From: an uncultured bacterium
GTDB lineage: Bacteria > Bacteroidota > Bacteroidia > Sphingobacteriales > Sphingobacteriaceae
Assembly (NCBI GenBank): GCA_903828245.1
Contig: CAIKLP010000053.1
Location: 1 to 38,971, forward strand
Direction: 5' to 3'
Length of the DNA: 38,971 nt
Shown piece by piece: positions 30,428 to 35,775 of the stretch. Position numbers and translations under genes: made by a program. Positions within the stretch are counted from its first letter, which is position 1. Every line of letters starts with the position of its first letter. Below the pieces are notes generated by a model. That model was not told where the DNA came from. It saw only the letters and a program-made list of their open reading frames with translations, and ran no database searches.

Positions 30428-31645
30428 TTATTTAATGGTTAAATAAAAATCAATATATTTTTGCGTGATGGCTTTGTTTTCGTATTGGCTAACCACCAAA
30501 TCAAATGCAGCAGCAGCAATACTTTCACGAAAATCATTATTTTGCAAACAATGTGTAATGGCTGCAATCCACTCGGCAGGTGTATCGGCAATAAGCATAT
30601 TTTTATTAGAGGTATAGTTTATACCTTCTGCACCAATCGTTGAACTAATAATGCATTTTTTGGCTGCCAGTCCTTCAATAATTTTTACACGCATTCCGCC
30701 GCCAGAAAGCAGCGGCACCAACATAATTTGGTGCGACTTTTTAAAAGCAATGGCGTCTTCAACAAAACCATGAATAAAAACATTTTTAAGCTGAAGCTTT
30801 AAAACCCAATCAGGTGTTGATTTTCCGGCTATATGCAATGTTATTTCGGGATGCTTTAGTAATAATTCATTCCACACATTTTCCAAAAACCATTTCAACC
30901 CTTCTATATTCGGTGCCCAATCTAAAGCACTGATACTAAAAATAGTATTTGGCTTTTCTATAAATAAATCAGCTTGTAAATATTTATCTAAAATCACTCC
31001 TGCAGGAATAACCTTTATAGGCTTCGTAATGCACATATCTAGTAGTCGCTGCTTATCTTCTTCGGTAATCGCTGCAATGCCGCTAGCCATGTTGTAATAC
31101 TTGTTTTCAAAAGCTTTCAGCCTTTTGCTTAAATGATTATAAAACCTTTTTTTCAATGGGTTTTTGGTATTAACAGCCAGTCGCTCCCAAATAATATATT
31201 CAATATTATGCGCCCTAATAATAATTGGCCTATTCGAATATTGTTGAATAACTTCAATATATTTTGCTACAAATGCACCTTCTACTTGAATAAAATCGTA
31301 GGTGTTTGCTTGCAATAATTCGATTAGTTTTTGGGAAACATTTTTAGCGTAAAAGCGCTCCACATTATATGGAATTGTTTTGAAAATTAAATTGATTAAT
31401 AATTTAACCGGCGAAATACGGGTGTCTACAAAAACATCTATTTGATTGGCGTATTCGGCCATTGCGCCTTTTGGTTGCGCATGTTTTGGCGTATTGATGG
31501 CTAATAAGTCTATGGTTGCGCCGTTCTCTTTTAAACCTTTAGTAATGGCGTAGATACCCATTGCTCCTCCATCTGTTGGTGGAAATGGGACCCGATATGT
31601 TAACTGTAAAACCCTCAATTTATTTGATACTCGCTTTGATTGCAT
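30428..31645 (-). CDS. Glycosyltransferase, GT4 family (group 1)
   Basis: This 405-residue GT-B protein has an N-terminal Rossmann domain that opens with LRVLQLTYRVPFPPTDGGAMGIYAI, the pattern of nucleotide-sugar transferases with a glycine-rich acceptor loop. The C-terminal domain carries ISALDWAPNIEGLKWFLENVW, LHIAGKSTPDWV, VHGFVEDA-like sequence and LVPLLSGGGMRVKIIEGLAAKKCIISSTIGAEGI, which includes the sugar-nucleotide site (E-x7-E-like region). The ATG at 31645 lies inside the upstream GT9 gene (26-base overlap). An in-frame TTG at 31618 just after the GT9 stop is an alternative. It acts in the cytosol or at the inner membrane face; donor and acceptor are unknown. Confidence 0.92.
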   Translation of the reverse strand: MQSKRVSNKLRVLQLTYRVPFPPTDGGAMGIYAITKGLKENGATIDLLAINTPKHAQPKGAMAEYANQIDVFVDTRISPVKLLINLIFKTIPYNVERFYAKNVSQKLIELLQANTYDFIQVEGAFVAKYIEVIQQYSNRPIIIRAHNIEYIIWERLAVNTKNPLKKRFYNHLSKRLKAFENKYYNMASGIAAITEEDKQRLLDMCITKPIKVIPAGVILDKYLQADLFIEKPNTIFSISALDWAPNIEGLKWFLENVWNELLLKHPEITLHIAGKSTPDWVLKLQLKNVFIHGFVEDAIAFKKSHQIMLVPLLSGGGMRVKIIEGLAAKKCIISSTIGAEGINYTSNKNMLIADTPAEWIAAITHCLQNNDFRESIAAAAFDLVVSQYENKAITQKYIDFYLTIK

Positions 31646-32705
31646 CGAGTACCGATGCTGCTGATAAATCTTTCATGCAAGACTCTCCATTTTTGCAGGC
31701 ACCTTGAAAATAACATTCGCATGCTTTAGATGGGCTTACAATTTGACCACGTTGATACAATTCGAATTCGTATGGATTGAAAATATTATTCATCAAAACC
31801 ATTTGCTTTTGCAAAGCCACCGCAATATGCATGGCCATGGTTACTTGCGTAACAATTAAATCCATTTGATACATCAAGTTGATGAATTTTGGCAAAGAAT
31901 GATAGCCTAAATAGCTAGCACCCGTTGCCTTTGCAAGCTTGGTATTTTTTTCGTGTTCTTGTTCACCACCCAATAATACGGGTACAAAACCTGCTTGTTG
32001 AATGAGCTGAATCAATTGTATCCAATGCGATTCTGGCCAAAGTCTGGTAGTCCAACGATCGCCACAACCGGTGTTTAATCCAATTAATTTTTTATCCGAA
32101 GGCAATTCCCACACAAAGCCTTTGTCTTGGTGGTTATCAAAAAGATATTCTTCTCCATTGAATTCCCATCCAGCCATCTCAAAAATTTCTTGCACATAAG
32201 ATTTTTGATTCTGCTTACTAATATCATCGAATAAACCAGTACTGTATTTGTGTTCGGCTAAAGCATTCAAAGGGTAAGGCACACCATCTTTTAAATGATA
32301 ACCAAAGCGTTCTGTAGCTGTTATAGTGTTAACTAAAGCACAAGCGTCTTTATCCTTATCTAAATTATATACTATATCAAATTTTACTTGTTGCACATAA
32401 AGTACAGCTGTAAAATCATATTTTAAAATTTCATCTATGGCTTGATTGGGTAAAATAGCAGGCGTATGGGTTAGCCAAGTTATTTTTGCATTGGGATGAA
32501 CGGCTCTAATTTTACGTATAAGCGGCGTGGTTCTGATCACATCACCAATGGCACCCAGTTTGATGATCAATATGCGTTTGCTTATTTTTTCGTAAGCAGG
32601 GCAATCTGCGCAATGATAGCCCGATTTTTTATGCGGGCCGCAAGGCAAATCTCCTTTAAAAAATAAACAATCTGTGTTTACAGCTAAACCGGCTATGCTA
32701 TTCAT
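31620..32705 (-). CDS. Glycosyltransferase, GT9 family (heptosyltransferase-like), with terminal Cys clusters
   Basis: This 361-residue protein has the GT9/ADP-heptose-LPS transferase fold. ILIIKLGAIGDVIRTTPLIRKI (about residues 46-67) matches the family start KxxxIGDVxxxxP. Later LIGLNTGCGDRWTTRLWP and VPVLLGGEQEHEKN form the donor site region. Ahead of the fold lies a 40-residue extension with Cys13, 22, 32 and 35 (CLFFKGDLPCGPHK, HCADCP). Near the end are Cys329, 331, 337 and 343. These suggest a metal or Fe-S site formed from both ends. The family normally adds heptose or related sugars to the LPS core. A 66-base gap separates it from the lptF-type gene, the widest inside this run. Confidence 0.92.
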   Translation of the reverse strand: MNSIAGLAVNTDCLFFKGDLPCGPHKKSGYHCADCPAYEKISKRILIIKLGAIGDVIRTTPLIRKIRAVHPNAKITWLTHTPAILPNQAIDEILKYDFTAVLYVQQVKFDIVYNLDKDKDACALVNTITATERFGYHLKDGVPYPLNALAEHKYSTGLFDDISKQNQKSYVQEIFEMAGWEFNGEEYLFDNHQDKGFVWELPSDKKLIGLNTGCGDRWTTRLWPESHWIQLIQLIQQAGFVPVLLGGEQEHEKNTKLAKATGASYLGYHSLPKFINLMYQMDLIVTQVTMAMHIAVALQKQMVLMNNIFNPYEFELYQRGQIVSPSKACECYFQGACKNGESCMKDLSAASVLDAIKASIK

Positions 32706-35382: not shown

Positions 35383-35775
35383 TTAATTTTTGATAAATTT
35401 ATGTTCGTTTACTTTAGATGGAGTTGAACAACTCGTTTGCATCCCGAAAAATTTATACCTGTTATTGGCTACCAAATCATAGACCCAATTTCTCAAAAAT
35501 TTTGGAAAAATGATAGCTAATATAGCTATCCTAGGCCATCCTGATAATAGTTTGGCAATTTCGATGATGGCATCTGATTGATAATAAACTAAATTTTCTT
35601 TAATAAAAATCACAGATCGAGCATCTTGTTTGATTAAGTACTGATTCATTATTTTTGCACCCGCATTGGTTTGTTGTGCCGCAAAATGTAAATTATTTTT
35701 TTTATCAAATTTGATTAAAAATAAAACCGTTTTGTTGCACATATTACAAAGCCCGTCAAATAGTACAATATTCAT
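35383..35775 (-). CDS. DCC-family thiol-disulfide oxidoreductase-like protein (DUF393)
   Basis: This 130-residue protein begins MNIVLFDGLCNMCNKTVLFL, which carries the DxxCxxC motif that names the family (Asp7, Cys10, Cys13). The motif resembles a thioredoxin-type redox site. Other family features are the FAAQQT segment, SVIFIKENLVYYQSDAIIEIAKLL, the hydrophobic AILAIIFPKFLRNWVYDLVANNRYKFFG block, and a C-terminal Cys in TSCSTP. Members are widespread and poorly characterised. The gene is single, reads against its GNAT neighbour with zero spacing, and is divergent from crtD across a 193-base AT-rich gap. Confidence 0.9.
   Translation of the reverse strand: MNIVLFDGLCNMCNKTVLFLIKFDKKNNLHFAAQQTNAGAKIMNQYLIKQDARSVIFIKENLVYYQSDAIIEIAKLLSGWPRIAILAIIFPKFLRNWVYDLVANNRYKFFGMQTSCSTPSKVNEHKFIKN

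Follow-up and report, generated by a model that had tools for sequence, protein, structure and literature searches.

The gene at 31620..32705 on the minus strand of the window (the whole stretch of 38,971 nucleotides that was analyzed) encodes a 361-aa glycosyltransferase of the GT9 family, which is probably a GT-B envelope enzyme that carries, near its hinge, two structural tetra-Cys metal sites separate from each other. We infer that each of these sites most likely holds a single metal ion, Fe or Zn, in a structural role. The C-terminal site (residues 329-343) appears to be an old GT9 feature, with the TibC iron finger as its probable equivalent, and the N-terminal site (residues 13-35) would be a later addition in one clade. 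Both sites would flank helix 158-167, which ends the N-terminal domain, and the pair probably acts as a brace on the hinge side, where the C-terminus rejoins the N-terminal domain.

The gene is a single open frame starting from ATG, unlike the plus strand of the same interval, which contains many stops. Its product matches the Pfam family PF01075 (GT9) with E 2.4e-13 and 50.4 bits, above the gathering cut-off of 22, which confirms the assignment to GT9 made in the sequence-only reading. The equivalog cut-offs of LPS heptosyltransferases I, II, and III are not reached (TIGR02193, 70.3 vs 185.3; TIGR02195, 52.7 vs 134.6; TIGR02201, 28.9 vs 170.2). The protein has Cys residues at positions 13, 22, 32, 35, 122, 214, 329, 331, 337, and 343. 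The earlier reading had placed all eight Cys of the two sets exactly, leaving Cys122 and Cys214 unmentioned. The first set is formed by an N-terminal extension with the spacing C-x8-C-x9-C-x2-C (residues 13-35; 32601..32669, minus strand), and the second is a C-terminal cluster with the spacing C-x1-C-x5-C-x5-C (residues 329-343; 31677..31721, minus strand).

Both sets are strongly conserved. A scan of named genomes with six peptides, one of which included Cys13, gave 76 full-length relatives with 45-98% identity (78 loci minus the fragments L090 and L099). Cys occupies positions 13, 22, 32, 35, 329, 337, and 343 in all 76 of them, and position 331 in 75; the exception, L094, carries this cluster in a CxxC form. 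Because of this retention, the Cys sets are not a product of chance. The N-terminal consensus of 58 relatives, DCRHFRGDIPCxPHKEHGYHCxxCPxY, matches the motif CxxF(R/K)GD...CxPHK...CxxCP that the earlier reading had named for other GT9 proteins, and this motif is thus real.

The conservation was further assessed in 253 distinct clade sequences obtained after removal of duplicates (209 at <90% identity). All eight Cys are complete by pattern in 252 of them, so that single Cys are not freely lost among homologs, free loss being an outcome that would have spoken against the earlier proposal; the lone exception (L356) has Ser at the fourth and last C-terminal Cys. By alignment, Cys is found at positions 13, 22, 32, 329, and 337 in 253/253 sequences, at 343 in 252, at 35 in 250, and at 331 in 217, with the N-terminal count being circular, since rows without the N-terminal motif were excluded from the set. 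The lower aligned counts at Cys35 and Cys331 arise because both positions shift with spacing. In a non-circular check, just four clade matches above 100 bits have no motif in their first 170 residues: the long reading frames L012, L121, and L055, and L167, which is cut off by a contig end. Three clade matches are without the C-terminal pattern, namely L143 (the pattern lies upstream of the fused frame), L168 (the protein stops before the pattern), and L356 with its Ser. Bit scores drop from 155 for the lowest-scoring protein with the extension to 93 for the best-scoring one without it. Distant members (~27-38% identity) demonstrate other N-terminal spacings, e.g., C-x8-C-x5-C-x4-C, and mostly have the CxxC form of the C-terminal cluster.

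Both sets are probably metal sites: the C-terminal one is similar to an iron site that is already known, and the N-terminal one, as an extension of GT9 proteins, is not described in the full-text literature searched, most subscription papers lying outside that collection. The N-terminal extension alone gave no significant PDB match by sequence. The best hit, MasC, was to the CxxCxxY stretch at a non-significant E of 0.53; MasC-type subunits presumably hold Fe-S clusters.

The AlphaFold model of the protein (m12883af76160) has a mean pLDDT of 92.7, with residues 1-40 at 85-94 and residues 11-40 at 89-94. Ten-residue blocks covering residues 321-350 have values of 87, 72, and 91. The middle one (331-340), in the C-terminal Cys stretch, scores lowest of all full blocks, which counts against the two-site reading. 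The predicted structure is a GT-B fold, and its nearest solved structures are GT9 proteins, with Z of 28.2 for 3tov, 25.9 for WaaF (1psw), and 25.4 for WaaC (2gt1), followed by TibC with 19.6. The chloroplast NDH subunit PnsB1 (7wff_a, 9grx_1, 7f9o_6) also matches the model at Z 20-21, and is matched by an ordinary GT9 profile at E 2e-13. Ahead of the first core strand (residues 44-48), the model has ~43 residues that contain one helix and two strands of three residues each, i.e., the Cys extension precedes the first strand of the GT-B fold. In a second model computed without residues 326-361, residues 1-40 have pLDDT of 87-96, and the three blocks covering residues 11-40 have 93, 96, and 95. 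That the N-terminal confidence remains intact without the C-terminus suggests that the N-terminal site needs no C-terminal site for its predicted folding.

Matches to solved GT9 structures begin at residues 41-43, so that the extension lies outside the GT-B core, and this location would also suit an oligomerization or partner-docking knob like the TibC iron finger instead of a brace within the monomer. In the TibC study, the iron finger forms a back-to-back dimer and is said to recognize the substrate (PMC4358343). The extension is predicted confidently in the monomer, which speaks against such a knob, and the coevolution data are neutral on this point because intra- and inter-chain contacts are indistinguishable in them. 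A docking role thus appears possible but rather doubtful, and two structural sites near the hinge of the monomer are preferred.

The placement of both sites is suggested by a mean-field coupling analysis (266 rows, effective number 163), in which both clusters are coupled to residues 158-167 (32205..32234, minus strand), with helix 160-165 in the model. The z-scores are 11.2 for S163-F333, 9.2 for H31-D161, 8.2 for S163-Y332, 6.6 for L158-Y332, and 6.2 for L158-F333. A phylogeny-only null of 12 simulations along the tree without coupling gave block maxima of 6.4 (against 9.2 for H31-D161) and 4.9 (against 11.2 for S163-F333), and the helix-cluster pairs are also recovered when the analysis is confined to the main clade (227 rows) and when other weightings are used. 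As residues 31 and 332/333 adjoin cluster Cys, each cluster probably touches the 158-167 region. Direct coupling between the N- and C-terminal clusters peaks at z 5.6, hardly above the null maximum of 5.4, and is therefore not established; its top pair, K17-S324, is absent from the N-terminal pairs listed for the main clade alone.

The two sets have a nested distribution. A sample of 75 ordinary GT9 proteins that lack the N-terminal extension (loci, retrieved stretches, and strays from other searches, together a subset of the listed matches) includes 61 with the C-terminal four-Cys pattern and none with the N-terminal set. The remaining 14 include L230, L236, L237, and L244, which keep several Cys with other spacing. 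Two more GT9 genes of the same genome (G000:C25 and C82) likewise have the C-terminal set and no N-terminal set. Full-length proteins with the N-terminal set all have the C-terminal one, bar the single Ser, and once the N-terminal set is present in the clade, the C-terminal set is almost never lost. In a tree based on core columns only, 31 clade representatives are placed apart from the 75 ordinary GT9s with zero misplaced rows, though at a branch support of only 0.41, and the tree has nine changes of the C-terminal set and one of the N-terminal extension. This nesting and the nine versus one changes suggest that the C-terminal set is probably older and able to stand alone, the N-terminal set having been added in one clade. 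Comparison of the clade profile with that of the ordinary GT9s (probability 100, E 2.2e-40) stacks Cys329, Cys337, and Cys343 on Cys of the ordinary proteins, with CxC versus CxxC at the front of the cluster.

These data bear directly on the earlier proposal that the C-terminus crosses back to the N-terminal domain and that the two clusters could meet there. The proximity part stands, albeit indirectly, as coevolution places both clusters near helix 158-167, whereas the idea of one site is not supported. A joint centre with ligands from both ends of the protein, e.g., a zinc cluster of two ions or an Fe-S cluster, would account for this shared helix and for the N-terminal set hardly ever occurring without a full C-terminal set. 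It is at odds, however, with the C-terminal set standing alone in 61 of the 75 sampled GT9s, with a direct N-C coupling close to the null and a top pair that is unlisted in the main clade, and with the predicted N-terminal confidence being independent of the C-terminal set, and we consider it unlikely. One joint centre or a redox centre is thus less likely than two separate sites.

The gene is located in a minus-strand series in the order START-like protein, LptF/LptG permease, GT9, GT4, GT2, and ribBA. The upstream neighbor, 66 bases away, encodes a permease of the LptF/LptG type (PF03739; 32772..34211, minus strand); the downstream neighbor is a GT4-type glycosyltransferase gene that overlaps the GT9 gene by 26 bases (30428..31645, minus strand), followed by a GT2 glycosyltransferase gene (PF00535; 29255..30427, minus strand). 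The LptF-GT9-GT4 order is also present in three Flavobacteriales-type bins (L028-L030; LptF identity 37-39%). Over 107 loci, many of which have short flanks, a GT4 homolog was found in 14 and LptF in 9. Hymenobacter-type loci have GT4 and GT2 genes downstream on the other strand, and Kapabacteria-type loci have a GT2 gene upstream on the same strand. A gene for a DCC1-like thiol-disulfide oxidoreductase is situated ~2.7 kb upstream in the window (35383-35775), with a homolog in 1 of the 107 loci. From the fold, the conserved Asp55, and the LptF-GT9-GT4-GT2 order, we infer that the enzyme adds a sugar to an envelope glycan, the envelope role following from the neighborhood of glycosyltransferase genes and LptF.

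Catalytic residues are partly retained. Asp55 (32541..32543, minus strand) is aligned with the Asp of the GD motif near the N-terminus of WaaC, which we take to be the catalytic base, and is Asp in 259/266 rows, as is typical of GT9. Arg221 at a donor-site position (32043..32045, minus strand) is Arg in 214/253 clade sequences and Lys in 39/253; Val288 (31842..31844, minus strand), which is Asp in the aligned solved GT9 structures, is Val in 214/253 and Asp in 39/253. Lys and Asp at the aligned positions of WaaC presumably constitute its donor site, and this pair of LPS heptosyltransferases is replaced by Arg and Val in the window protein. The TibC study states that Asp-110 is the catalytic base and that changing Lys-230 removes most of the activity (PMC4358343). 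A third conserved position, Cys214 in the NTGCGDRW donor-side loop (32064..32066, minus strand), is Cys in 229/253 sequences, i.e., nearly as conserved as the cluster Cys.

Because Val288 and Arg221 depart from WaaC, neither activity nor donor is secure. The Arg/Val and Lys/Asp states have identical counts at positions 221 and 288 (214 and 39), which hints at a different donor, and this matched split bears directly on donor use. Of the ADP-heptose genes gmhA and rfaE, the two searched, the host genome has rfaE domain II over its cut-off, yet no gmhA over the cut-off was found in this 99.45% complete genome (best score 19.5 bits), so that ADP-heptose as the donor is doubtful. Loss of sugar transfer from the GT9 fold altogether would agree with the replacement of the donor-site Asp and Lys by Val and Arg, and has a parallel in chloroplast PnsB1, where a GT9-like fold serves as a subunit of another complex. 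Nevertheless, Asp55 is kept, the donor loop is strongly conserved, and the gene is located among glycosyltransferase genes, all of which makes such a loss improbable.

In a bolder variant of the two-site arrangement, the paired neighboring tetra-Cys metal sites, one contributed by each end of the chain, would clamp the two domains at the hinge, and metal supply or oxidation would gate domain closure. We hold this to be improbable as well; if it were true, metal or oxidation gating would reach the synthesis of envelope glycans, and would do so in a clade that most genomes of one class contain. A redox or metal-sensing switch in one or both sets (Fe-S, or Cys4-Zn releasing its ion on oxidation), for which the two near-invariant Cys4 sets, Cys214 in the donor loop, and the non-significant MasC match of the CxxCxxY stretch might be invoked, is very unlikely, as no redox partner recurs among the annotated neighbors and the authors of the TibC study saw nothing to indicate that the iron finger transfers electrons (PMC4358343).

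The subfamily that the earlier reading had suspected behind the Cys motif exists and is wide, reaching across Bacteroidota. The 78 loci in named genomes belong to Hymenobacter, Adhaeribacter, Fulvivirga, many Bacteroidota metagenome bins, Kapabacteria, and Ignavibacteriae. Many of the Hymenobacter loci (L034-L071) start ~1 kb from a contig end, which suggests a nearby repeat such as an rRNA operon. A further genome search at E 1e-10 found relatives in 20 of 100 genomes, three of them (L019-L021) being ordinary GT9s without the extension, and a phylum-wide search at E 1e-20 found them in 89 of 395. In the class of G115, 246 of 294 genomes have a match at E 1e-25 or better. In the phylum to which L094 (titled Poribacteria) is assigned, just 1 genome out of 84 has the family, and L094 sits on a 3,539-base contig; it is therefore likely a transfer or a binning error. 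No relative of the GT9 protein was found in the viral contigs searched. Two Streptomyces plasmids have relatives with 26-28% identity over 98% of the query. One of these relatives, P0002 from plasmid pFRL5 of Streptomyces sp. F8, shares 28% identity at that coverage and carries both four-Cys sets. The P0002 gene cluster (L201:779-13104) contains genes for rfaE2, an epimerase, a carbamoyltransferase, a GDSL esterase, a P450, a radical SAM protein, and SHMT, and looks like a pathway for a sugar-bearing natural product. Clusters of the bleomycin and septacidin types may be related to it, and literature searches on them returned nothing usable. Overall, what was a single odd protein is now a defined clade with eight near-invariant Cys.

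A metal site in a sugar transferase is less unusual than the sequence-only reading had held. According to the TibC study, this enzyme binds a ferric ion through C-lobe Cys339, Cys342, Cys358, and Cys370, and mutating any of the four leads to the loss of iron, dodecamer, and activity (PMC4358343); another study describes BimC with the same Cys motif as TibC (PMC11499645). A profile of 34 ordinary Cys4-bearing GT9s matches TibC at E 2.5e-6, and the match extends to profile position 342 of 347; TibC was missed by a short profile restricted to the Cys region. In a further profile match (profile 2-91 vs TibC 291-388), the matched range ends 18 positions after the last Cys in the profile and in TibC alike, an agreement from our own arithmetic that assumes pairing of TibC Cys370 with the last profile Cys and is consistent with homology. 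The match at E 2.5e-6 and the fold match (Z 19.6) suggest that the C-terminal Cys set of GT9 proteins and the TibC iron finger are probably equivalent sites.

Ordinary Bacteroidota GT9s (e.g., L002 and L217 of the same genome) have in common with the window protein the C-terminal CxxC..C..C set, with three Cys aligned by profile, but are without the N-terminal Cys extension. P0002 of pFRL5 has both four-Cys sets, as does the window protein, and differs from it by an N-terminal spacing of 8,5,2 and by retention of the donor-site Lys and Asp. The best fold matches, WaaC, WaaF, and 3tov, have 16-19% identity to the window protein, and WaaF and 3tov have no Cys at the place of the C-terminal set. 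TibC and other BAHT enzymes (PDB 4rap/4rb4) share with the window protein a GT9-like GT-B fold and a group of four conserved C-lobe Cys close to the C-terminus (Cys329, Cys331, Cys337, and Cys343 in the window protein), although the C-terminal spacing is 1,5,5 in the window protein and 2,15,11 in TibC, the enzyme in which Fe binding was demonstrated (PMC4358343). As described in that study, TibC has a single Cys set, a beta-hairpin thumb, and, at its N-terminus, a beta-barrel formed by residues 1-97, whereas the window protein has a 42-residue extension with a second Cys set; the BAHT barrel of ~97 residues is absent, only ~43 residues preceding the first core strand in the model. The comparison suggests that a TibC-type metal site, lacking in the solved WaaF and 3tov, is a widespread GT9 feature that extends beyond the autotransporter enzymes.
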